Assembly: GCF_002530675.1 (NCBI RefSeq)
Contig: NZ_PCMX01000053.1
Coordinates: 1 to 64,000, forward strand
DNA from: Flavobacterium columnare NBRC 100251 = ATCC 23463
GTDB taxonomy: Bacteria; Bacteroidota; Bacteroidia; Flavobacteriales; Flavobacteriaceae
Length of the DNA: 64,000 nt
Direction: 5' to 3'
Under the pieces are notes generated by a model that was given only the letters and a program-made list of their open reading frames with translations, did no database searches and was not told the origin of the DNA. Both the position numbers and the translations under genes were made by a program. The stretch's first letter is position 1; the number at the start of each line of letters is the position of its first letter. Positions 1,985 through 33,561 of the stretch are shown here, piece by piece.

Positions 1985-4690
1985 ATGAGTGAAGAAAACG
2001 AAAATATAGAAGACGATTTAACCCTAGAAAGCAAAAACCAATCTGAAGAAAACACTTCTGAGGAAGGATATTTTTTGGGAGAACATTTTTATGAAAATAA
2101 TGAAGAAAATCCTGATGCTACGATTACCAAAGTAACGGGTATGTATAAGGATTGGTTCTTGGATTATGCTTCTTATGTAATCCTTGAGCGTGCTGTACCA
2201 GCTATTGAGGACGGTTTTAAACCCGTACAACGTCGTATTATGCACTCCATGAAAGAGTTGGACGATGGACGTTATAACAAGGTAGCAAATGTAGTAGGGC
2301 ATACCATGCAGTACCATCCACACGGTGATGCCAGTATTGGTGATGCCATGGTGCAAATTGGACAAAAAGATTTATTAATTGATACCCAAGGAAACTGGGG
2401 AAATATACTAACGGGAGACGGTGCTGCGGCATCCCGTTACATCGAGGCACGTTTAAGTAAGTTTGCCTTAGAGGTGTTATATTCTCCTAAAATTACAGAA
2501 TGGGGATTGTCTTATGATGGTCGTCGTGCGGAGCCTATTAACTTACCTGTAAAATTTCCACTACTCTTAGCTCAAGGAGGAGAAGGTATTGCGGTAGGTT
2601 TATCAACTAAAATTTTACCCCATAATTTTAATGAGTTAATTGATGCTTCTATTAAAATTTTAAAAGGAAAATCATTTACACTTTATCCTGATTTTCCAAC
2701 AGCTGGTATTGCAGATGTTTCTAACTATAATGATGGTTTGCGAGGCGGACGTGTGCGAGTACGTGCAAAAGTATCGCAATTAGATAAACAGACCCTTGTT
2801 ATTACTCAAATTCCATTTTCTACTAATACGACTTCTTTAATTGATAGTATTTTAAAGGCAAACGATAAAGGGAAAATAAAAATCAAGAAAATTGAAGACA
2901 ATACGGCAGCGGAAGTTGAAATATTGATTCATTTGCCACCTGGTGTTTCTCCTGATAAGACAATTGATGCTCTTTATGCCTTCACAGCTTGCGAAACGTC
3001 TATTTCTCCTTTAGGCTGCGTGATTGAAGATAATAAACCATTGTTCATAGGGGTATCGGAAATGTTACGTATTTCTACACACCGTACACTTGATTTATTA
3101 CGTCAAGAACTAGAAGTACAATTGGCAGAACTAGAAAATAAATGGCATTTCTCAACTTTAGAGAAAATATTTATACGAGAGGAAATGTACATCGATTTTA
3201 AATTGTATGCCAATAGAGAATCGTTGTATGAATATATGTACAAACGTTTTAAACCCTTTAGAAAGTTATTAGTACGTGATATTATAGATGAAGATTTGCA
3301 AAAATTAACGCAGATTCCTATGATTCGTATAACCCGATTTGACTCTGATAAGGCAGATGAATTGATAGCTAAATTAGAGGATGAAATAGCAGAAATTAAA
3401 CATCATTTGGATAATTTAATTGATTTTGCAATTGCTTATTTCGCTAGGTTAAAAGAAAAATATGGTAAAGGTCGTGAGCGTCAAACTGAAATACGAAATT
3501 TTGAAAATATAGAAGCTACTAAAGTGGTTCTAAGAAACACAAAATTGTATGTAAATCGTGAAGAAGGTTTTGTAGGAACATCCCTCAAAAAAGACGAATA
3601 TGTGGCCGATTGTAGTGATATTGATGATGTTATTTGTTTTTTACGTAATGGTAAGATGATTGTTACAAAAGTAGATGAAAAGAAATTTGTAGGTAAGGAG
3701 ATCATTCATATAGCTGTATTTGATAAAAACGACAAGCGTACCATTTATAATATGATTTATCGCGATGGTAAATCAGGTCCCTCATTTATCAAACGTTTTA
3801 GTGTTTCAGGTGTAACTAGAGATAAAGAATATGATTTAACTCAGGAAAAAACAGGTTCGCAAGTCTTGTATTTTTCGGCTAATCCAAATGGTGAAGCAGA
3901 AACAGTAACTATTTTACTGCGTCAAGTTGGAAGTGTCAAAAAATTAAAATGGGACATAGATTTTGCTGATATTATGATCAAAGGAAGAGCTTCTAAAGGG
4001 AATACAGTGGCTAAATATCCGATTAAAAAAATTGAGTTAAAAGAAAGAGGCATTTCTACCTTGCGCCCAAGAAAAGTATGGTTTGACGATACCGTACAAC
4101 GTTTGAATGTTGATGGAAGAGGGGAATTATTAGGGGAATTTAAACCGAATGACCGTTTGCTAATCATTCATCAATCAGGTAAAATTAAAACAGTAATTCC
4201 TGAGCTAACCACGCACTTTGAAGACGATATGATTGTATTGGAAAAATGGCATCCTCAAAAACCTATTTCGGCTATTTATTATGATGGTGAAAAAGAGCGT
4301 TATTTTATAAAACGTTTTTTAGTTGAACATGAAAATAAAGAAGAGCTTTTTATCTCTGAACATGAAAAATCCCAATTAGAAATTGTTTCTACGGATTGGC
4401 GACCTATGGCAGAGGTTATTTTTGCTAAAAAAGGTGGGGTTCAAAAAGAAAATTTAATAGTTAATTTAGAGGAGTTTATTGCTGTAAAGGGAATAAAAGC
4501 ATTAGGAAACCAATTAACAGCAGATAAAATTAAACAAATTAATATGTTGGAATCGCTTTTATATGAGGAACCAAAAGAACTTTCTGAAGAAAATTTTAAA
4601 AAGGATACAGAATTAGAAGAAGGAACTGATATCAAAGATTATGATATTACCCTAGAAGATGATGGGCAAATAACGTTGAGTTTGGATTAA
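1985..4690 (+). CDS. parC: DNA topoisomerase IV subunit A (DNA gyrase/topo IV A family)
   Basis: 901 residues. This is the DNA breakage-reunion subunit of type IIA topoisomerase, working with ParE to unlink replicated chromosomes. After an acidic N-terminal tail (1-45) come DGFKPVQRRI (77-85), HPHGDASIGDAM (111-122) and AASRYIEARL with the active-site Tyr152. Then follow the tower and coiled-coil regions and a C-terminal beta-propeller-like part with degenerate repeats (about 520-850). The acidic C-tail is typical of Bacteroidota. A parE gene would be expected next to it; here the genes just upstream are accessory, so parE must lie further upstream or elsewhere. ParC rather than GyrA is inferred from family resemblance. 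Confidence 0.9.
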   Translation: MSEENENIEDDLTLESKNQSEENTSEEGYFLGEHFYENNEENPDATITKVTGMYKDWFLDYASYVILERAVPAIEDGFKPVQRRIMHSMKELDDGRYNKVANVVGHTMQYHPHGDASIGDAMVQIGQKDLLIDTQGNWGNILTGDGAAASRYIEARLSKFALEVLYSPKITEWGLSYDGRRAEPINLPVKFPLLLAQGGEGIAVGLSTKILPHNFNELIDASIKILKGKSFTLYPDFPTAGIADVSNYNDGLRGGRVRVRAKVSQLDKQTLVITQIPFSTNTTSLIDSILKANDKGKIKIKKIEDNTAAEVEILIHLPPGVSPDKTIDALYAFTACETSISPLGCVIEDNKPLFIGVSEMLRISTHRTLDLLRQELEVQLAELENKWHFSTLEKIFIREEMYIDFKLYANRESLYEYMYKRFKPFRKLLVRDIIDEDLQKLTQIPMIRITRFDSDKADELIAKLEDEIAEIKHHLDNLIDFAIAYFARLKEKYGKGRERQTEIRNFENIEATKVVLRNTKLYVNREEGFVGTSLKKDEYVADCSDIDDVICFLRNGKMIVTKVDEKKFVGKEIIHIAVFDKNDKRTIYNMIYRDGKSGPSFIKRFSVSGVTRDKEYDLTQEKTGSQVLYFSANPNGEAETVTILLRQVGSVKKLKWDIDFADIMIKGRASKGNTVAKYPIKKIELKERGISTLRPRKVWFDDTVQRLNVDGRGELLGEFKPNDRLLIIHQSGKIKTVIPELTTHFEDDMIVLEKWHPQKPISAIYYDGEKERYFIKRFLVEHENKEELFISEHEKSQLEIVSTDWRPMAEVIFAKKGGVQKENLIVNLEEFIAVKGIKALGNQLTADKIKQINMLESLLYEEPKELSEENFKKDTELEEGTDIKDYDITLEDDGQITLSLD

Positions 4691-21267: not shown

Positions 21268-22779
21268 ATGAAAAAAAAGTTAATTAAAATTTGTTTTTTA
21301 TCTGTTATAGCTTTTACTTCTTGTGTTAATGATGATTCTTCCTCTCAAGAAGAGAATGTTGTAATTGCTGAAAATCAAAAAGAACCTTTGTCAAATAAAG
21401 AAATAAATGATAAGCTTCTTTTCCGTGTAAAAACGGGCGAACAGTTTAACTGGAATATGGCTACGGCACATGAAGTTTGGAGTGCAATTCAAAATGGAAA
21501 CAAAATTTGTACTATAGGTTTTGGAAATAATAAAAATGAATTTGATAGAAAAAAAACAACAAATCAAGCAGAACTACAAAATCAATTGCTTAAAATTATA
21601 GCTAAGTATGAAGAAAAAGAAATAGGAAAAATATTACTAAAAGAAGATCCTTACCTTAATCTTGTAGATGTTTATATTGAAAAACAAGAAACCATCATAG
21701 CCCTAAAAAGATTGGGGTACGTACGTTATGTTGAACCAGGAGATTTTAGAATAGAACCAGGATCAGATCCTACAAGTAAAGATTCTTCATCTTCGTCTGG
21801 ATGTGGGCTAGAAAGCGAAACAATTAGTTCAGGAGATTTTACAACAATTACACCTAATGCCAAAGTTCCTTGGGCATTTTATAATCACAATATACCTTCT
21901 GCATGGGGACACTCTACAGGTAGAGGAATTACGTTAGCTATTGTAGATACAGGAGCTTCTACTGTTAATTCATTACTAAATGCAAATTTTAACAATGGCG
22001 ATTCTTCAGGAAGAACAATTCAAAAATATGGCGTTTATGTAGATTCTATTTGGCCTTGGTCCACAGGATATGACGGAGCAAACGATAAATGTGGGCATGG
22101 TACAAGTATGTCCTCCGTGGCGGCCTCTCCTAGAAATGATAAAGGACAGCCCGTAGGAGTAGCATATAACTGTAACTTAATTACCTATAGAGCTGCTTCA
22201 AATGTTGTACTAGACGGTTACCAAGAGTTAGAAGCTGTTAAAAAAGCGTTTACAGATTTAGGAAACAACTCTTCTGTTCGTGTTATATCTATGTCAATGG
22301 GAAATATTATTTCTTCCAGTAAAATTGAAGACGGTATAAAATATGCTTATAGTAAAGGAAAATTAATTTTTTGTGCAGCTGGAACCTCTACCAATTTTAC
22401 CTCATCAGTTGGGGTTATCTTTCCAGCATGGATGCCTGAAACCGTTGCTGTTACTGGTTTAAGAGAGGCAAATGGTTATGAAGCATGTGATATTTGTCAT
22501 ACAGGAAATAAAGTTGAATTTGCTATTATGATGCAAAGAAGCAATACAGGAAATAAAATACCTGTAAATAGTTATTATGAAGGGCAAAGTGATTATGTAG
22601 GAGGTTCTTCTGTAGCTACGGCAACAACAGCTGGTATAGCAACCTTAATATGGGCTAAAAATCCTACTTGGACGAGAGATCAGGTTTTAAATAAGTTACG
22701 CCAATCTTCTGAATTTTATGGTAAGAAACATCCTGAATTTGGTTATGGTATGCCAGATGCTTTGAAAGCAGTTCAATAA
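21268..22779 (+). CDS. S8 (subtilisin-like) serine peptidase, lipoprotein
   Basis: 503 residues. Signal peptide with lipobox FTSC (Cys19), followed by a Ser/Asp/Glu-rich tether, a propeptide-like part to about 185 and the protease domain from about 200. Triad: Asp227 (AIVDTGAS), His277 (CGHGTSMSSVAA), Ser448 (GGSSVATA). The usual oxyanion-hole Asn (AGN) is replaced: the motif reads CAAGTST with Thr373. Likely anchored in the outer membrane or exposed outside. A diverged, broken relative lies at 29149-29958 and shares the same Thr. Substrate unknown. Confidence 0.88.
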   Translation: MKKKLIKICFLSVIAFTSCVNDDSSSQEENVVIAENQKEPLSNKEINDKLLFRVKTGEQFNWNMATAHEVWSAIQNGNKICTIGFGNNKNEFDRKKTTNQAELQNQLLKIIAKYEEKEIGKILLKEDPYLNLVDVYIEKQETIIALKRLGYVRYVEPGDFRIEPGSDPTSKDSSSSSGCGLESETISSGDFTTITPNAKVPWAFYNHNIPSAWGHSTGRGITLAIVDTGASTVNSLLNANFNNGDSSGRTIQKYGVYVDSIWPWSTGYDGANDKCGHGTSMSSVAASPRNDKGQPVGVAYNCNLITYRAASNVVLDGYQELEAVKKAFTDLGNNSSVRVISMSMGNIISSSKIEDGIKYAYSKGKLIFCAAGTSTNFTSSVGVIFPAWMPETVAVTGLREANGYEACDICHTGNKVEFAIMMQRSNTGNKIPVNSYYEGQSDYVGGSSVATATTAGIATLIWAKNPTWTRDQVLNKLRQSSEFYGKKHPEFGYGMPDALKAVQ

Positions 22780-25179: not shown

Positions 25180-25456
25180 AAAAGTATATTTATAACAGCC
25201 CTTTGGACTGGATTTTTTTAAAACGAGGCAAAGGTAAGCCAACTAATTTTGAGTGCTTTAGAAACCAACTGATGAATATTCTGGAGTAAAGTGCTATAGG
25301 TTAGTGTTTTTCTTATGACTCGCTCATTAGTTGATAATAAGTTTGTAAATACCCCGCAACGTAATTTTTTTTACTAAAATGATGGTATGAACAAGATCAA
25401 AAAAATCAATACAATTGTATAGACTTCTTTAGACTGAATAAAAATTTTAAAAATCA

Positions 25457-25489
25457 TTTGGAAATTAAAAAAAATAATTACAAAATTTG
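25457..25489 (+). promoter_or_regulatory. Likely promoter of the short transcript before rtcB
   Basis: TTTG (25457-25460), 21 bases, then AAAATTTG (25482-25489), one base off the Bacteroidota -7 consensus TANNTTTG. Transcription would begin near 25496, about 30 bases before the small reading frame. Confidence 0.45.
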
Positions 25490-25526
25490 CGTCAGAAAAT
25501 TAGTAACAATTAAAAACGAAGAAAAA

Positions 25527-25610
25527 ATGTTTGTATTCAATGTAACACTTTTAGGTTATCAATCAGCGGGAGCTGGTGTAACTGCGCTTCGTGGTTTTAC
25601 TTTAAGTTAG
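25527..25610 (+). CDS. 27-residue small ORF in a short terminated transcript
   Basis: ATG 25527 to TAG 25610 encodes MFVFNVTLLGYQSAGAGVTA followed by LRGFTLS. It follows a purine-rich stretch (GAAGAAAAA), sits behind a plausible promoter, and is followed after 24 bases by a strong terminator, giving a predicted RNA of about 170 bases. It could be a small protein, a leader peptide controlling rtcB read-through, or a non-coding RNA with a chance frame. The composition, rich in Gly, Ala, Thr and Val, does not match a leader peptide family I know. Confidence 0.4.
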   Translation: MFVFNVTLLGYQSAGAGVTALRGFTLS

Positions 25611-25634
25611 ATTCAAAAAACTTCACTATATGTT

Positions 25635-25667
25635 AAAACCCGAAGACCTTTAGTTTCGGGTTTTTTT
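25635..25667 (+). terminator. Rho-independent terminator or attenuator before rtcB
   Basis: AAAACCCGAA (25635-25644) and TTCGGGTTTT (25655-25664) pair fully around a 10-base loop and run into a T-tract. It lies about 95 bases before the rtcB start, so it either ends a separate small gene or attenuates rtcB. Confidence 0.8.
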
Positions 25668-25759
25668 ATGCCTTAAAATTTCCCGATAACTTCAAAGTTT
25701 GATTTCAACCAAGTGCTCTAGCATTTGGAAGAGCAGTCTATTATTCAAAATTTAAATTT

Positions 25760-27151
25760 ATGGGAAATAAATTATCAGGGAGAGACCTAATCAAGATAGG
25801 GTTCCCTAAAAATAATGCCATCAATATAACCTTAGGGCAAATTAACAGATATCGCAAAAGAGAAAAAAAAGAAAGTATACTCACCGAAGCCAAAGAGGTT
25901 TTACTACACCCTGAAAAGTTCAAAAGTCATGGAACTTGGGGCAAAGTAGCCGAGGGATTAGTGAATCCAGTACAAGTAAAGTTCAACGAATTACGGAACA
26001 CACGAGCGCCATTTTCGATTTTTGGTGAAAACGAAATCGAAGAGCAAGCCAAGTTTCAATTGTATGATGCTTTGAAATTACCTGTTGCTGTACAAGGAGC
26101 CTTGATGCCAGATGCACATTCTGGTTACGGATTGCCTATAGGCGGTGTGTTAGCCACAGATAATGCAGTGATACCGTATGGGGTAGGAGTAGATATAGGT
26201 TGCCGAATGAGCTTGTCTATATTCGATTTACCCGCTTCGTATCTCAAAGGAAAAGAACATCAATGGCGAAAAATGCTGTTGGATAACACCAAGTTTGGAA
26301 TGTACGAAACACACAAAATCAAATCCGATCACGAAGTGTTTTCTCATCCTGCTTTTTCAAATATTCCTTTGGTAAAACAATTGTTAGATAAAGCATACAA
26401 GCAATTGGGTACTTCGGGTGGAGGAAACCATTTTGTCGAAATAGGAATCGTAAAAATCGACACCCCTATGAACGAATGGAAATTAGACGTAGGCGAATAT
26501 GTAGCGGTTTTATCGCACAGTGGTTCCAGAGGTTTGGGGGCCAATATCGCAAAACATTATACCTATTTGGCTACTAAACAATGTCCGTTACCTAAAAATG
26601 TACAGCATTTGGCTTGGTTAGATATGAACACACACGACGGACAAGAATACTGGATGGCAATGAATTTAGCGGGCGAATATGCTAAGGCATGTCACGAAGA
26701 TATTCACAAACGTATTGCGAAAGCCATCGGGAAACGAGTGTTAGTAACCATCGAAAACCATCACAATTTTGCTTGGAAAGAAATGGTAAACGGACAAGAA
26801 TGTATTGTACATCGCAAAGGCGCAACACCTGCAGCCAAGGGCGAACTAGGAATTATTCCGGGTTCGATGACAGCACCTGGTTTTATTGTACGAGGCAAAG
26901 GAAATGAAAGTAGCCTGAATTCTGCTTCGCACGGTGCAGGACGATTGCATTCTAGAGCCAAGTGTAAAGTCAAGTTCACCCAAAGCGATATCAAAAAAGT
27001 TTTAAAAGACAAGGAAGTCGATTTGATTGGTGGTAGTATCGATGAAGCACCTATGGCGTATAAAGACATCCATAAAGTAATGGCGCTTCAAGAAGAATTA
27101 GTAGAAGTATTGGGAACATTCACCCCAAAATTTGTGAGAATGGATAAATAA
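25760..27151 (+). CDS. rtcB: RtcB family RNA-splicing ligase
   Basis: 463 residues. Joins RNA ends bearing 2',3'-cyclic phosphate or 3'-phosphate to 5'-OH, using GTP and Mn. Metal and guanylylation residues are in place: MPDAHSGYG (Asp118, His120), GVDIGCRM (Asp145, Cys148), GGGNHFVE (His224), LSHSGSRG (His253), ENHHNFA (His334), and SASHGAGR with His391 as the expected GMP-accepting histidine. An N-terminal extension (about 1-90, LSGRDLIKIGFPKNNA) precedes the core. First gene of a cluster with a zinc-ribbon protein and prfH; this pairing points to repair of cleaved ribosomal RNA rather than tRNA splicing. Confidence 0.94.
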   Translation: MGNKLSGRDLIKIGFPKNNAINITLGQINRYRKREKKESILTEAKEVLLHPEKFKSHGTWGKVAEGLVNPVQVKFNELRNTRAPFSIFGENEIEEQAKFQLYDALKLPVAVQGALMPDAHSGYGLPIGGVLATDNAVIPYGVGVDIGCRMSLSIFDLPASYLKGKEHQWRKMLLDNTKFGMYETHKIKSDHEVFSHPAFSNIPLVKQLLDKAYKQLGTSGGGNHFVEIGIVKIDTPMNEWKLDVGEYVAVLSHSGSRGLGANIAKHYTYLATKQCPLPKNVQHLAWLDMNTHDGQEYWMAMNLAGEYAKACHEDIHKRIAKAIGKRVLVTIENHHNFAWKEMVNGQECIVHRKGATPAAKGELGIIPGSMTAPGFIVRGKGNESSLNSASHGAGRLHSRAKCKVKFTQSDIKKVLKDKEVDLIGGSIDEAPMAYKDIHKVMALQEELVEVLGTFTPKFVRMDK

Positions 27152-27159
27152 GCTTTGTT

Positions 27160-27789
27160 ATGGAAAGGTTTGAGGATAAAAATATAAGATTAGGTAAATT
27201 CAATGATTTCATTGATGTCGTTTGTCCAAATTGCAATCAGAAAGCAGCTGTAAAAATCAAGAATGAATTAGAATCTTGTCCTAATTGTGGAAAACACAAT
27301 TGCGAAAGCAAAAGGGTTTTTGAATGTAAACATTGTTATTACAGTTTCTCTAAAAAGAAAACAATTTTTGAGCCCTACGCTAAGGTATATTGTTCAAATT
27401 GTTCTGAAAAGTACGAAGTAAAAGGAGTTCAAACGACTAAACAGGTAAGCGAAATAAAAGTTAAATGTCCACATTGTAATCATAGCGAAACTGTGAAAGC
27501 AAAACTTAAAGAAGTAGAGTTTGAATTTAAATTCGATATTGAAGGAGTAAGAGACCCTTTTTATAATTGCAGCTTATGGTACCAACAAGAATTTAAACAG
27601 AATGTTTTTTGGGCTTTAAATAATGATCACATTAATTACTTAGAAAGATATATTGAGGCTGATTTAAGAGAGCGCAACTCAAAATACAATGGAGGTCAAA
27701 CGTTAGTAGCGCGATTACCAAAGTTTGTCAAAGAAGCAAAGAATAGAGACAAACTTTTAAAAATTATAGAAAAATGGAAACAAAAATAA
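27160..27789 (+). CDS. Multi-zinc-ribbon protein between rtcB and prfH
   Basis: 209 residues. Five Cys pairs are spaced as zinc knuckles: 22/25, 40/43 (with 48), 56/59, 78/81 and 103/106, giving about two to three zinc ribbons. A C-terminal domain (about 125-209) carries [31 protein letters not shown] and [20 protein letters not shown], as in TFIIB-type zinc ribbon proteins of unknown function in many bacteria. It starts 8 bases after rtcB and overlaps prfH by 16 bases, so it is translated with both. Binding RNA or the ribosome is a reasonable guess from the zinc ribbons and the neighbours, not shown. Confidence 0.75.
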
Positions 27790-28523
27790 AATCAAATCAA
27801 GTCTCTAATAGCCCCTCCTTTGGAGGGGTTGGAGAGGCTATCATACAAATCACCTCAGGAAGAGGACCAGCCGAATGCGATTGGGTAGTGGCGCAAGTGC
27901 TCAAAAGAGTATTAGTCGAAGCCGAAGAAATGAAGCTGAAAGTGGAAGTAATTAATAGAGAGCCTGGACCCGAAAACGGTACCGTAGTTTCGGCATTAGT
28001 AGCGATAAAAGGTGTCAATACCAACGAATTTGTGCGTAGTTGGGTGGGTACCATTCAATGGATTGGGAAAAGTACGTTTCGAAAGTTTCACAAACGTAAA
28101 AATTGGTTTATCGGAATTTTTGAAGTGCCTCCAATCCTCTTGCCTACGTTTTCAGAAAAAGATTTTCAATATCAAGCAATGCGCAGTTCAGGAGCAGGGG
28201 GACAACACGTAAACAAAGTGAGTTCTGCCATTCGTGCCACACATCTTCCTACTGGAATAAGTGTAGTGAGTATGGATTCTCGTTCGCAGCACCAAAATAA
28301 AAAATTGGCAACCGAACGATTACTAGCCAAACTGAAAGAGACGCAGTACGACCAACTCCAACAGCAAGTGCAAAACCAGTGGACCAATCAAATGGCAGTG
28401 CAAAGAGGAAACCCAATTCGCACTTTTGAAGGTTCCGATTTTAAAAAAGAAAAGAAAAGTAAAAACAACAAAAAAGAACGACAAGAAGGAAAGAAGATGA
28501 TAAACGATAGTTTATATGATTAG
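27774..28523 (+). CDS. prfH: Peptide chain release factor-like protein PrfH
   Basis: 249 residues. PrfH releases peptides on ribosomes whose decoding centre is damaged; it keeps the GGQ domain but lacks the stop-codon recognition part of RF1/RF2. Here [16 protein letters not shown] is the N-terminal PrfH signature (from about 26), TIQWIGKS and KRKNWFIGI follow, and the catalytic loop [11 protein letters not shown] has GGQ at 142-144. The C-tail (215-249) is Lys-rich. The only ATG that fits is 27774. It adds about 20 residues ([11 protein letters not shown]) encoded by a short GC-rich hairpin repeat that normal PrfH proteins lack. Together with rtcB, this forms a release-and-repair pair. Confidence 0.9.
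27812..27828. repeat. GC-rich hairpin repeat in the prfH start region
   Basis: CCCCTCC TTT GGAGGGG is a perfect 7-base stem with a 3-base loop, in an otherwise AT-rich gene, followed by TTGGAGAGGC. It looks like a short intergenic repeat that has become the coding sequence for the PrfH N-terminal tail ([10 protein letters not shown]). Confidence 0.6.
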
Positions 28524-28571: not shown

Positions 28572-29102
28572 ATGCAATCAATAGATAAATATGTAGTACA
28601 AGCCTTGGATAATTATCCCTATTGACTTGAAGGAACCTTAGAGTCATTAGGATATGCCTTGGTGTATGATAACAAAAACGCTATGGCATTAGGATTGTAC
28701 GGACGCTTGTATGCCGAACAAATGCAAGATTATGAATCGGCAAAACAATATTATGCAGAAGCTTTGGCTGCTGATATTCACGCTTTGGAGATATATCCAC
28801 ATTATGCTGAGGTTTTATTATTGAATGAAGATTACGAAGAAGCGGCAAAGCTAATCGATTTCTCATTGACAATAAAAGGAATTAACAAAGTTTAAATGTG
28901 GATAAAGAAAATCCAATTGCTAGAAAGGCAATAGAAAATTAAAGCCGCTTTGAAAATGATTAAAGAAGTAAAATTAATTTCCTTTACCAACGATTCTTAT
29001 GAAATTGACCAAATAGAAAAACGTTTGAAAAATAAAAAAGAATTGCTCAAACTTAAAAAGTCGAAGAAAAAGAAAGCAGAGAAGAAGAAAAGTAAGAAGT
29101 GA
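28572..29102 (+). pseudogene. TPR protein, broken by a stop and frameshift
   Basis: From ATG 28572 the frame reads MQSIDKYVVQALDNYPY, a TGA, then LEGTLESLGYALVYDNKNAM, LYGRLYAEQMQDYESAKQYY and YAEVLLLNEDYEEAAKLIDF: TPR-like helix pairs. A TAA at about 28893 ends this frame; the continuation (VDKENP, ARKAIE, AALKMIKEVKLIS, then a Lys-rich tail) is in other frames and runs to TGA 29100-29102. About 175 residues if repaired. At least one nonsense codon and one frameshift. It follows prfH by about 48 bases and may once have been part of that transcript. Confidence 0.75.
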
Positions 29103-29148: not shown

Positions 29149-29958
29149 ATTAATTTTAATGGAAGTTTTAATAATGGGCTTTCCTCGGGTAGAGTGGTGC
29201 AAAAATATGGCGTCTATGTAGATTCTATTTGGCCTTGGTCTTCGGGCTATGATGGCGCTAACGATAAATGTGGGCACGGTACCAGTATGGCATCTGTGGC
29301 TGCTGCACCTCGTAACGACAAAGGGCAACCTGTGGGAGTGGCCTATAATTGTAATTTGGTAACCTATCGCGCGGCTTCAAATGTGGTGCTAGACGGCTAC
29401 CATGAATTAGAAGGCGTAAAAACAGCCTATATTAATTTGGCTAATAATGTTAATGTTCGCGTGATTTCCATGTCGATGGGGAATATTATCTCCTCAGGAA
29501 AAATTGAAGATGCGATTAAATATGCTTATAGTAAAGGGAAACTAATGTTTTGTGCTGCGGGAACCTCTACGAGTTTTACCACTTTTGCGGGGGTTATATT
29601 TCCTGCTTGGATGCCTGAAGTGGTTGCTGTAACAGGAATTAAAGATGCCAGTACCTACCAAGCCTGAGATGTATGTCATACAGGAAGTAAAGTAGAATTT
29701 ACCATTATGATGCAACGAGTAACCAGCGGAAATAAAATTCCGGTGAACAGTTATTATGATGGACAAGGCGATTATTCTGGAGGATCCTCAGTGGCTACGG
29801 CTACGACTTCAGGGATTGCTACTTTAGTTTGGGCTAAAAATCCTAGTTGGACCCGCGACCAAGTTTTACAAAAACTGCGTCAGTCCGCTCAGTTTTATAC
29901 CAATCGCCATTCTGAATTTGGCTATGGGATGCCCGATGCTTTGAAAGCGATGCAATAA
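29149..29958 (+). pseudogene. S8 (subtilisin-like) peptidase remnant
   Basis: Homologous to the C-terminal 265 residues of the lipoprotein protease at 21268-22779, from about NFNNGDSSGR onward. The 5' half, including signal peptide, propeptide and the Asp motif, is missing. His motif (CGHGTSMASVAA) and Ser motif (GGSSVATATTSG) remain. An in-frame TGA at 29666-29668 replaces the Cys of CDIC (TGT to TGA). Synonymous positions differ widely from the intact copy and are more GC-rich, so it is an old or separately acquired relative, not a recent duplication. Confidence 0.85.
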
Positions 29959-29964
29959 AATAGG

Positions 29965-30116: not shown

Positions 30117-32600
30117 TTATATCTTAATAATATTTTTTGTCAAGATTTGATTAGCAATTTCTGTATAAATATCAGGAGTGTTTTCAGGGGTTTCAATTGA
30201 GACTATTAGAGAATATCGTAACTGAGAGTCATATTTCTTTTGTTTCTCTAATTGTTTCCACCAGCCTGAAGCAAGGGGAAATATTGCTAGTTTATTACAA
30301 ACTGCTATATCGGCTGCTGAACCATTCCAAAAATTACTATGTATGGATCCTTTGAAAACTGTATCAGCACCTAAAAACCACCTTTTTTCTTGTTTTTTTT
30401 CATAATCAACTTCAGATAATTTTTCAACCCCTTGTTCATCTTTTAGATTTTTAATATTAATTTTGTTGGTTCTAACTTTAAAATTTTCAAAAGTTTCGGT
30501 TGGATTAATAAGTGAAAATTTTAATGCTGTGGATTGATATGAATATTTAGTTGAATATCCTTTGTCTCCAGGATTAGGTTCGATATAATATGAAAGAGTA
30601 ACTCTCAAAGTTACATTTGTTTCTCCAAGATTTGCTAATATTTCTGATGGCCATGGAAATTCATAATAATGTATTTCATTTGTTTTTACAGTACCATCAA
30701 TTTTATAAGGTGTAATTACTTCTTCAGAAATAAATGTCAGGTAGTTAGATTTACATTCTATCGCTTTTTTTAAATTAGGTATTCCATAGCCAACTATTCT
30801 TAATAATTTCTTTTTATCTCCGACTTTAGTAATGTCAATTTTAAATTGATTTATTAACTCTTCAGTCCAAGATGAAGAGTGAATCATTAATGCTCTTAAT
30901 GTTTCAGGCCAAGCATTGGGATAAATATTTCTTAACTTTGCTAAAAAGTTTGATGCAGTTGCAGTTGCTGCACTTGTAGCATTAAAAGTAGTAAAAGCGT
31001 TTACAATTCCCATAGTCGAGGTAGTCAAAATTTCTAAGTCTTCATGTCTTTCAATGTTTCCATCCTCACGTTTTTTTAAGTTTCCTCCTTCAAAAACAAC
31101 TTCTGGTTTTATAGGCCAAAAAGATTCCCATGAACTAGAAGTTCTACTAAAAGGTGACAATTCGAACTTTTTTGCTACTGTGTTAGTATTAGGTAATATT
31201 TTTTGAGTAAATGCACCAATAGTTATTGCATTCCATGATTGTGCTGGGCTTTCTACAGAAAGATTTAGATTACTTTCGGGATAACTAAGTAATTCAATAT
31301 CTTCTCGAACATTCCCTGCACTGATAACAAAAATTTTTTTATCATTTTCAAAATCACCAAAGATAATTTTATCCAAATAAGCTGACCAAGTTGAAGGTTT
31401 TCCAAAATCATTTTGATTTTTACCTGTAACTGCCATACAAAAGATCCTTTTATAATCAGGATTATTAATCACTGATATGTTAATAGCGTTTTGGGTAATA
31501 AAATGGCATTTGTTTAATTCAGTTGTTTCTCCATCTGGTGGTAGAATTTTAACTGATTCTAATCGGTGGTTTACTTGTAAAGGATTGTTGTATTCTAATA
31601 TTTTATTTAAATTATCATATAGAGCAATACCTGCCATAGCAGTGCCATGTCCATTATGACCAGCATCATTTATACCCCAGTTAGAATCAGCAGTTAGACA
31701 GTCGTTTCTATTTATTGCATTTTTTAATAACTTATGACCAATATTGACTCCTGAGTCTAATATTGTAATGTAATTATTTGATTGATTAAATGTTATATTG
31801 TTTATTGCTGATTCAATCCAATTCTCTCTGTTAATTATTGTTTGATCTAACCAAAAACTATTTAATTCTTCAGCTCTACGAACTTCTGCAATATATCCGA
31901 ACGACATTGATAATTCAACTAGTTGTTGGTAATTTAATTTCGTATAAACTATTATTCTTTCTGGAAAAAAAGTAAATTCTTCGGAAATAGTGATGTTAAA
32001 AAAATCAGAAATACCTTTCAGAGTTTGAAACTTTTTATCTATTTCAGATTTATCTATGGCTAACCATAATTCACACCAAACAGCTTCTTCTTTCGGTATA
32101 TAATCATTTGAGCTATTCCAGATAAAATCTATATTAGTTCTTTGAATTTTATCTATTTTTTCGACAAGTTTTTGGCTAACAGGAAGACCTTTTTTTGTGT
32201 CTTCAAAAATATACTTTTGTATTTTTCCAATTAACTTTTCTTTTTTATTGTCAGGGATGTAAATAGTAGCTATTTGTAATTTGTTTTCCTGATTGCTTTT
32301 AACATTTAGTAATTTGGCTCCATCAGAACTCAAAGAACTTAATTCTAATAATTGTTTTTCAGCACCAATAAATGTAATGTATTCACCATCTTTAACAGGT
32401 AAACTTTTCTTTGTTCTATCGACAACCTCTTGAATATGTGTGTTCCAAATCTCATTTAAAGATGAAAGTAAAAAATTTCCGTGAACTTTACGATCTCTTT
32501 GAGGTAATATTGTTTTAATCGGCGGACTTGGAGGCGTGGTGTAAGCTTGTGAAGAGTGAACATTTTTTACAAAAAGATGTGGTTTGAAATCTTCGTTCAT
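30117..32600 (-). CDS. IetS-like subtilisin family protease of an antiphage system
   Basis: 827 residues, no signal peptide, so cytoplasmic. An N-terminal region (1-270) with no clear enzyme motif precedes the S8 domain: Asp282 (TILDSGVN), His318 (GHGTAMAGIA), oxyanion Asn430 (VISAGN), Ser543 (FNATSAATATAS). A C-terminal beta-rich part (about 640-827) follows. It starts 7 bases after the AAA-ATPase gene. An AAA-ATPase followed by a large subtilase is the layout of IetAS, first seen as a plasmid incompatibility (toxin/antitoxin-like) pair and later shown to give phage resistance. The protease would be the effector held or triggered by the ATPase. Confidence 0.85.
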   Translation of the reverse strand: MNEDFKPHLFVKNVHSSQAYTTPPSPPIKTILPQRDRKVHGNFLLSSLNEIWNTHIQEVVDRTKKSLPVKDGEYITFIGAEKQLLELSSLSSDGAKLLNVKSNQENKLQIATIYIPDNKKEKLIGKIQKYIFEDTKKGLPVSQKLVEKIDKIQRTNIDFIWNSSNDYIPKEEAVWCELWLAIDKSEIDKKFQTLKGISDFFNITISEEFTFFPERIIVYTKLNYQQLVELSMSFGYIAEVRRAEELNSFWLDQTIINRENWIESAINNITFNQSNNYITILDSGVNIGHKLLKNAINRNDCLTADSNWGINDAGHNGHGTAMAGIALYDNLNKILEYNNPLQVNHRLESVKILPPDGETTELNKCHFITQNAINISVINNPDYKRIFCMAVTGKNQNDFGKPSTWSAYLDKIIFGDFENDKKIFVISAGNVREDIELLSYPESNLNLSVESPAQSWNAITIGAFTQKILPNTNTVAKKFELSPFSRTSSSWESFWPIKPEVVFEGGNLKKREDGNIERHEDLEILTTSTMGIVNAFTTFNATSAATATASNFLAKLRNIYPNAWPETLRALMIHSSSWTEELINQFKIDITKVGDKKKLLRIVGYGIPNLKKAIECKSNYLTFISEEVITPYKIDGTVKTNEIHYYEFPWPSEILANLGETNVTLRVTLSYYIEPNPGDKGYSTKYSYQSTALKFSLINPTETFENFKVRTNKINIKNLKDEQGVEKLSEVDYEKKQEKRWFLGADTVFKGSIHSNFWNGSAADIAVCNKLAIFPLASGWWKQLEKQKKYDSQLRYSLIVSIETPENTPDIYTEIANQILTKNIIKI

Positions 32601-32607
32601 TTTTTAT

Positions 32608-33561
32608 CTATATCAAATGATTAGTTTTTCGGTCTTTTATCATCTGAACCAATAATTTTTGTGTTATTGTATTTTTATCGGTTAAAATAATTTCTTTCAA
32701 AGCGTCATTACAAGCATTTGTTATTTCAGCATGACTTAATCCGTATGCAACTTCAATTAGCGATTTAAGAGAATAGTCTCCAAGAAATTTATGTAGTTTT
32801 AGTTTTATTAATTCTTCTATGTCTTCTTTATTTGGTAAAGAATATGTTATGATGTCATCAAAACGTCTAAATAACGCAGAATCTAATATTTTTATATTGT
32901 TAGTAGCTCCAAAAATTATACTTTCTGATGAGTCTTGTTCGATAAATTGAAGAAATGAATTTAATATTCTTCGCATTTCTCCTACTTCGTTGTCTCTTCC
33001 TCTTTCTGCTCCAATGGCATCAAATTCATCAAACAAATAAACTCCTCTATTTGAAATCATCATGTCGAAAATCTGTCTCAATTTAGAGGCAGTTTCTCCC
33101 ATGTATTTAGTCATTAATTTGTCCATCATCACTACGTATAATGGTAATTTCAACTCTCCTGAAATGGCTGAAGCTGTGGCGGTTTTACCTGTTCCTGGCA
33201 AACCTGATAGTAAAACTTTTCTACGGTTTTGCAAACCAAATTTTAATATTTTATCTCTTTCTCTATACTCTCTAATTATCCTATTCAATTTATTTGAAAC
33301 TTCATTTGAAAGTATTAATTCATTTAATTTGTTCTCAGGATAATATACTAATACTAAGTCGCTTAAATCAGGATTGATTTTGATGATTTTAAAACCATCT
33401 GTTTTTGATTTATCGACTAAATCTTTTATTTCTTTTGCAATAGCCATATGTCCTTGCCGTGCTTCATGAGCTGCCATTTGAAGGGCAATAGAAGTAAACC
33501 TTTCATTGTCATTTTTATAATGAGAAAGTAATAAAGATTTTATTTGTTCAGCTGTTGCCAT
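32608..33561 (-). CDS. IetA-like AAA+ ATPase of an antiphage system
   Basis: 317 residues. Single AAA+ module related to FtsH/spastin-type ATPases. Walker A is GLPGTGKT (120-127), Walker B is VYLFDEFD (Asp178, Glu179), sensor 1 is FGATNN, and arginine-finger-type residues are in ALFRRFDD. The N-terminal 90 residues are a helical domain (HYKNDNERFTSIALQMAAHEA), probably for binding partners. Forms a two-gene operon with the subtilase. CAAATTTA at 33566-33573 (TAAATTTG on the minus strand) matches the -7 box but lies only 5 bases from the ATG, which would make the mRNA nearly leaderless if used. Confidence 0.85.
   Translation of the reverse strand: MATAEQIKSLLLSHYKNDNERFTSIALQMAAHEARQGHMAIAKEIKDLVDKSKTDGFKIIKINPDLSDLVLVYYPENKLNELILSNEVSNKLNRIIREYRERDKILKFGLQNRRKVLLSGLPGTGKTATASAISGELKLPLYVVMMDKLMTKYMGETASKLRQIFDMMISNRGVYLFDEFDAIGAERGRDNEVGEMRRILNSFLQFIEQDSSESIIFGATNNIKILDSALFRRFDDIITYSLPNKEDIEELIKLKLHKFLGDYSLKSLIEVAYGLSHAEITNACNDALKEIILTDKNTITQKLLVQMIKDRKTNHLI

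Follow-up and report, generated by a model that had tools for sequence, protein, structure and literature searches.

How does a cell detect that its ribosomes have been cut in the decoding centre, and what does a zinc-ribbon protein encoded among its repair genes contribute? Both questions are raised by a locus of Flavobacterium columnare NBRC 100251 = ATCC 23463, found in a 64,000-nucleotide stretch of contig NZ_PCMX01000053.1 (positions 1 to 64,000, forward strand), which we call the window. Here the RNA ligase gene rtcB (25760-27151, plus strand) is followed on the same strand by the gene of a zinc-ribbon accessory protein, hereafter ZnR (27160-27789), and by prfH (27774-28523), which encodes peptide chain release factor H. 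A first-pass annotation had described these genes as one tightly packed cluster, and this holds in every detail: the open reading frames (ORFs) agree, the gap from rtcB to ZnR is 8 bases (27152-27159) and ZnR overlaps prfH by 16 bases (27774-27789). Rescue and repair of ribosomes by PrfH and RtcB are known from published work. We propose that the locus is a ribosome-damage response operon under a leader-peptide attenuator that senses impaired ribosomes, with ZnR as an optional helper, and we consider this reading likely.

The leader ahead of rtcB

The leader occupies positions 25516-25667 on the plus strand and combines a 27-codon ORF, three mutually exclusive pairings and a terminator. The ORF (25527-25610) is predicted, and a short ORF starting with ATG is present in 62 of 64 leaders. 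Segment A (ACGAAGA, 25516-25522) lies just 5' of its start codon and pairs with segment B (25587-25599), which comprises codons 21-25 of the ORF and can pair either with A or with segment C (25634-25645). C forms the antiterminator with B or serves as the 5' arm of an intrinsic terminator (25635-25667), a hairpin with the 3' arm, D, followed by a run of T. In the window the B:C pairing has 12 base pairs, one bulge and a predicted energy of -12.2 kcal/mol, and C:D has -12.1 kcal/mol, so the two alternatives are balanced. The centroid fold of the full leader contains A:B and the terminator, the minimum-energy structure lacks A:B, and a leader stripped of A and D folds with B:C. At the sequence level the window has what is expected of an attenuator: a short leader ORF, an intrinsic terminator after it, and an alternative pairing that excludes the terminator and is kept by covariation, with few independent events on the tree. 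A generic terminator scan picked another hairpin instead of C:D, and none of the Rfam matches listed for positions 25250-25800 of the window or 3300-3900 of locus L125 (E up to 1) reaches its gathering score.

Compared across genera, the sequences of the pairing segments covary. In an alignment of 24 leaders, 22 of them from Flavobacterium (alignment A5), B:C forms pairs in 92.0% of cells against 28-60% for slid versions, and C:D in 99.2%; both structures were taken from the window row and so have an advantage over the slid versions. A second test took one leader from each of 27 genera, out of 57 of the 58 leaders (that of G059 was lost). Segments were located by short patterns which themselves dictate part of A, B and C, leaving only the outer positions as free tests. 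The pair b2:x2 is formed in 22 of the 27 genera (shuffle mean 17.7, with 3 of 2000 shuffles as high) and b3:x3 in 23 (17.2, 0/2000), x2:y2 and x3:y3 are formed in all 27 (21.5 and 20.8, each 0/2000), and b1:x1, at 25/27, stands at shuffle level and provides no test. For A:B, a pairing outside the structure of the search model described below, position n:b0 pairs in 17 of 22 genera (shuffle mean 10.4, 0/2000) and A6:B-1 in 21 of 22 (14.4, 0/2000). The A:B duplex has -11.1 kcal/mol with its own partner and -8.6 kcal/mol with a partner from another genus, and B:C has -14.5 and -11.6 kcal/mol, respectively (0/5000 permutations in both cases). Where B carries CTTCA, encoding Leu-Gln, A carries TGAAG (G109, G161 and G447).

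The leader is also linked to the operon. A pattern search found its arrangement in 54 of 60 upstream regions from rtcB-prfH loci, the six others being L122, which is short, L226 and four non-Flavobacterium loci. A covariance model, R1, was trained on A5, whose leaders had all been located upstream of rtcB beforehand; 12 of its training sequences come from the 66 prfH genomes (all those met across three genome scans). It recovered the leader in L142, L161 and L164, and in G423, the genome of L226. R1 has a match at E≤0.1 in 60 of the 66 prfH genomes, and in 58 a match lies upstream of prfH on the same strand, at a distance of about 130-3751 bases (five of the 58 have E between 1e-3 and 0.05). 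At E≤1e-3, 53 of 54 matches in these genomes are upstream of prfH. The 58 include every one of the 24 Flavobacterium genomes and 32 of the 40 others that contributed no training sequence (the training genomes G176 and G255 excluded). The genome of the window itself has one R1 match and one pattern match. Twenty of 189 genomes of the family have a match, and of the 14 matches at E≤1e-3 ten precede prfH, with G082 ambiguous. The leader also stands before the TPR gene of this operon type in G065 and, more weakly, in G216 and G104, and further weak matches occur in G203, G228 and G234. It keeps its position at the start of the operon when an extra gene precedes rtcB, when rtcB has moved (G311) and when rtcB is not seen within 1.5 kb (G095, G252). 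It is found in all 11 genomes with ZnR beside prfH and in 47 of the 55 without. At 58/66 the leader is a far more constant companion of the operon than ZnR.

Several observations weigh against our reading. The folding energy of the leader is not unusual relative to shuffled sequences (z of -0.72 and -0.26, the former for the whole leader), and in A5 shuffles do as well on two of the five covariation measures, for both B:C and C:D. Position n:b0 fails to pair in 5 of 22 genera, the outer pairs of the antiterminator are lost in many leaders, and eight of 64 leaders yielded no segment A. Three changes on the PrfH tree suffice for the b2:x2 switch, so independent events are few, and a formal test on independent pairs has 2 to 4 of them, which cannot reach significance, with b2:x2 going one each way (the B segment of G507 was set by hand for this tree-based test). 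No R1 match lies upstream of prfH in eight of the 66 genomes (G053, G138, G215, G245, G412, G440, G471 and G567), and in two genomes, G127 and G215 (loci L258 and L262), the leader precedes PcfJ-like genes, each perhaps another ribosome- or RNA-damage gene. To these points should be added the many ZnR genes away from the operon and the many prfH genomes in which no ZnR was found, both counted in the next section. Sequence evidence establishes the three genes, the presence of a leader with covarying pairings, and the link between leader and operon.

The zinc-ribbon gene between rtcB and prfH

The ZnR protein has five CxxC pairs (at residues 22, 40, 56, 78 and 103) and a basic C-terminal helix, placed at residues 193-208 by a structure model with a mean predicted local distance difference test score (pLDDT) of 87, within a lysine-rich stretch. 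The first-pass annotation had taken such a protein to be absent from the usual description of RtcB-PrfH pairs, which is contradicted by the literature: an RFH-RtcB accessory with one or two ZnR domains and a charged C-terminal helical region was published by Burroughs and Aravind in 2019 (PMC6514570). In the text of that paper available to us its function is given as unknown and contact with rRNA is guessed at. The window protein answers to this description in its zinc ribbons, its positively charged C-terminal helical region and its position beside RFH/RtcB, and the idea that it recognises the damaged ribosome or the cut RNA is one already published. No family exceeds its threshold for ZnR, Pfam zinc-ribbon matches being sub-threshold only; among solved structures a profile search mostly picked up generic zinc fingers, at weak scores, and the PHROGs database yielded only weak matches, for four ZnR proteins. 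In fold searches the full model matched best the ZitP zinc finger (Z 4.0, root-mean-square deviation (rmsd) 4.2 over 45 residues), ribosomal zinc proteins reached Z≤3.7, and Foldseek found nothing at E≤0.001 among the Protein Data Bank (PDB) and viral models. The C-terminal domain alone (pLDDT 77) likewise had no Foldseek match at E≤0.001, and its best Z, among 46 chains only, was 2.0 (rmsd 6.0 over 46 residues). For ZnR such weak or absent matches are uninformative in either direction. Two CxxC pairs, the extra and the next-to-last, are jointly missing from one clade (L109, L110, L112, L114, L115, L121, L126 and L147), hinting that the two bind one zinc.

Does ZnR travel with the pair, a possibility that the first-pass annotation had raised? 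A scan of the collection found 168 relatives, and the neighbourhoods were counted in the best 80 of them (the named loci, weighted to Flavobacterium). Thirty-nine of these have ZnR placed between rtcB and prfH, all three on one strand (35 Flavobacterium, 2 Aquimarina, 1 Bizionia and 1 Dysgonomonas; prfH is split in L132 and rtcB in L103), and in the other 41 neither gene was found in the stretch examined. The leader is found in 37 of the 39 linked loci (12 of the 37 are training sequences) and in none of the 41 unlinked ones. The two linked loci without it are L122, with little upstream sequence, and L155, from Dysgonomonas; the match in L142 is weak (E 0.008), and L108 and L111 have additional weak matches on the opposite strand. 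Seen from prfH, ZnR occupies the slot beside this gene in 11 of the 66 genomes (in one, G236, it is broken up), lies elsewhere in three (G032, G719 and G567) and was not found in 52. In 397 genomes of the family prfH occurs in 32, ZnR (by profile, with at most 8 candidates scored per genome) in 11 and both in 4, in all four with ZnR directly upstream of prfH. This places ZnR in 4 of 32 prfH genomes versus 7 of 365 others (Fisher p 0.008, kinship ignored; the two scans were taken to cover the same 397 genomes, as judged from genome labels). Joint travel is borne out for one part of the ZnR family, sometimes, and not for the rest. Chance adjacency can be rejected for the linked lineages, with the same gene order in 39 of 80 loci and with the clades described below, and is retained for the wider family with its 41 unlinked loci. 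An obligate partnership can be rejected on the 52 prfH genomes in which no ZnR was found, and these, together with the 41 unlinked loci, speak against a core third component.

The unlinked genes yielded no common neighbourhood: beyond near-syntenic relatives only a few neighbours, of secreted or regulator type, are common to 3 or 4 loci. Unlinked L154 adjoins a gene of the AAA/M41-protease kind and KptA, as does its sister L155. KptA lies close to ZnR in G311 and in both Dysgonomonas loci, which we count in favour of the helper role. Loci L204 and L155 are larger RNA-repair islands that hold KptA in addition to rtcB, ZnR and prfH, the Dysgonomonas one with the AAA/M41-protease gene as well.

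Is ZnR then a mobile passenger with no part in ribosome repair, and the space between rtcB and prfH merely a tolerant insertion slot? The unlinked relatives speak for this, as do 12 of 64 loci (prfH genomes G138 and G412 yielded no locus) with a nucleotidyltransferase-like gene upstream of prfH, which replaces ZnR in 11 and joins it in one (by sub-threshold Pfam matches). Divergence of ZnR follows that of PrfH loosely, with a rank correlation within Flavobacterium of 0.40 for ZnR-PrfH vs 0.77 for PrfH-RtcB, and the presence of ZnR shows 12 changes along the PrfH tree, at least 6 of them forced (98 rows, which over-represent linked loci; quick method with long-branch warnings, L114 and identical rows omitted). 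Against a passenger stands, first, the ZnR tree (94 rows, likewise quick and with long-branch warnings; the G004 copy was omitted as a duplicate of L114). It contains a clade of 40, all linked (support by the Shimodaira-Hasegawa-like approximate likelihood ratio test, SH-aLRT, 96), a second linked pair from two families (SH-aLRT 99) and one linked Dysgonomonas protein sister to unlinked L154 (SH-aLRT 99). Linkage thus changes three times, at least twice by force of well-supported branches, so that ZnR would have been acquired two or three separate times directly before prfH. Second, in 38 of the 39 linked named loci the two genes overlap, ZnR stop with prfH start (starts assigned mechanically), and the overlap persists in G311, where rtcB is displaced behind KptA; by gene order, ZnR tracks prfH more closely than rtcB. 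Third, the ratio of nonsynonymous to synonymous substitution rates (dN/dS) for ZnR is 0.10 when the window is compared with F. davisii and 0.06-0.23 for ten further pairs, the signature of purifying selection at the codon level. We therefore consider a passenger unlikely.

Median pairwise identities within Flavobacterium are 61% for ZnR, 87% for PrfH and 95% for RtcB. Because of the overlap with prfH, the linkage kept in G311, these identities, the dN/dS values and the changes on the trees, ZnR is best described, from its sequence record, as a selected, fast-evolving and optional helper, bound to prfH more than to rtcB. In the gap of the G379 locus (L058:2740-3312, minus strand) we observed a different-looking CxxC protein, with no Pfam match, upstream of the nucleotidyltransferase.

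A stalled ribosome as the probable signal

How could such a leader report on ribosome damage? On a leader free of ribosomes A:B would form, the terminator would follow and the operon would be off. A healthy ribosome that reaches the leader stop codon would cover B, and the terminator would again form. A ribosome that starts and then stalls early would break A:B and leave B free for C, so that the terminator is blocked and the operon is on. RtcB and PrfH would then be produced. On a ribosome cut in its decoding centre, PrfH would release the peptide and RtcB would reseal the 16S rRNA; ZnR would most likely act beside PrfH, by binding rRNA or the damaged ribosome. We infer translation of the leader and stalling as the signal in this scheme, and likewise any activity of ZnR.

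The leader peptides are variable and have in common only, near the end, Leu-Arg or Leu-Gln, after which, among 62 peptides, Gly is most frequent (32), or Asp (17, after Leu-Arg). In a tally of 54 leaders, 51 encode Leu-Arg by CTTCGT and 2 by CTTCGC (L133 was taken with the wrong ORF). The peptides thus have little in common beyond the Leu-Arg/Leu-Gln residues, whose codons are needed for pairing, and what the leader registers is probably the stall as such, of the kind that damage or drugs impose on a ribosome. Its architecture resembles that of a trp-type attenuator whose peptide is not conserved, which by analogy points to a sensor of stalled ribosomes.

An ordinary attenuator tuned to one amino acid, with its position before the operon incidental, would have a precedent in Flavobacterium psychrophilum, where leader-peptide attenuation has been reported upstream of amino-acid operons (PMC9723704, in the text available). 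However, no run of a single residue is evident in our leader peptides, their shared part tracks the RNA pairing, and rescue and repair genes lie downstream in 58 of the 66 prfH genomes, so we regard this explanation as very improbable. Zinc ribbons are frequent in transcription factors, WYL domains mark a class of regulators, and ZnR has weak matches of the former kind with WYL-domain genes near some loci, but we give little credence to ZnR as a nucleic-acid-binding repressor or antiterminator of the operon rather than a repair factor, as the leader is present with and without it, ZnR matches no helix-turn-helix family and its gene sits mid-operon, overlapping prfH.

If the sensing of stalled ribosomes is correct, it would explain how a cell detects cut decoding centres: the damaged ribosome itself would fail on the leader and thereby raise the repair enzymes. 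The leader model could also be used for finding more ribosome-damage genes. More speculatively, Flavobacteriales repair operons might in general be induced by their own lesion through a leader peptide of variable sequence that responds to any early stall, with a small regulon of rtcB, prfH, TPR and PcfJ-like genes, and the gene in the rtcB-prfH slot (ZnR, nucleotidyltransferase or none) might be a fast-changing cassette that fits a constant core to different kinds of rRNA damage; we put this forward tentatively, as an idea we do not yet favour.

The operon, its surroundings and known systems

RtcB of the window matches PF01139 (3.8e-84) and keeps the motifs with cysteine, histidines and asparagine, which we take to be the catalytic residues; rtcB and prfH adjoin on the same strand. 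PrfH scores 244.2 bits against TIGR03072 (cut-off 166.65), which makes it a member of that family, and has its GGQ at residue 142. The nearest solved PrfH is 9mor_A (268.9 bits over residues 21-243), with 7sa4_8 lower at 149.3 bits; our literature search turned up no paper accompanying PDB entries 9mor/9mq4. PADLOC at E≤0.1 reported nothing for RtcB, ZnR or PrfH. An N-terminal extension of PrfH (27774-27842) precedes the conserved start of the family and holds a 17-base palindrome (27812-27828); a 21-base query including this palindrome found one more near copy in the genome and led no further.

In 56 of 64 loci prfH is followed on its own strand by a TPR gene. The window is among them, but its copy (28572-29102, plus strand) survives only as a remnant interrupted by three in-frame stops. 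An intact copy is present in Flavobacterium davisii 90-106, where rtcB is split. Because of the remnant in the window and this split rtcB, the operon may be decaying in the F. columnare/F. davisii group. A subtilase gene (21268-22779) and a partial second copy (29158-29963), with 76% DNA identity over 808 bases, flank the operon, and PADLOC places an anti-phage pair of the IetA/IetS type next to it (30117-33561, minus strand).

One of the closest known systems is the RtcB2-PrfH operon of E. coli ATCC25922, which is reported to protect from colicin E3, a nuclease that cuts the decoding centre of 16S rRNA (PMC9223846). There, as in the window, ligase and release factor adjoin; accessory genes and a leader do not figure in the part of that account available. 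The ligases differ, the window RtcB reaching 141 bits against TIGR03073, the family of the E. coli-type PrfH partner RtcB2, which is below its cut-off of 271.8.

The accessories listed in the accessible text of the 2019 paper are a TPR gene, a Pol-beta nucleotidyltransferase, ZnR and a charged helical protein (PMC6514570). The first three kinds are seen in the present loci, the nucleotidyltransferase by sub-threshold matches only, and the fourth was seen by eye in genes just upstream of rtcB, without a Pfam match. That text gives no counts, and its accessory section mentions no leader.

A leader in a comparable place is known from Pseudomonas aeruginosa, where the PA5471.1 leader peptide and predicted terminators lie upstream of armZ, an RtcB-like gene with prfH adjacent (PMC12057347). 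In the accessible part of this review, ribosome-targeting antibiotics induce the system, attenuation is described as proposed and not confirmed, and ArmZ is an anti-repressor of an efflux pump. The likeness lies in a leader peptide before an RtcB-like gene next to prfH, in a distant phylum, and is one of description and not of sequence. Together with this leader, ours suggests that stall-sensing attenuation of RtcB-PrfH genes may have arisen more than once.

In Bacteroidota, our search of the literature for rtcB/prfH or Flavobacterium together with leader peptides, a search whose coverage excludes most subscription papers, gave no report of the leader, and rtcB does not occur in the available text of the F. 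psychrophilum attenuation study (PMC9723704).

What kind of system is it then? Attenuators of the trp type have four segments, three mutually exclusive pairings and a short leader ORF. The Flavobacterium leader has the same order of pairings and differs in a peptide without an evident run of the regulating amino acid. The operon is thus of a known kind with a known optional accessory, and its leader is, relative to the literature searched, a new and well-conserved regulatory variant.

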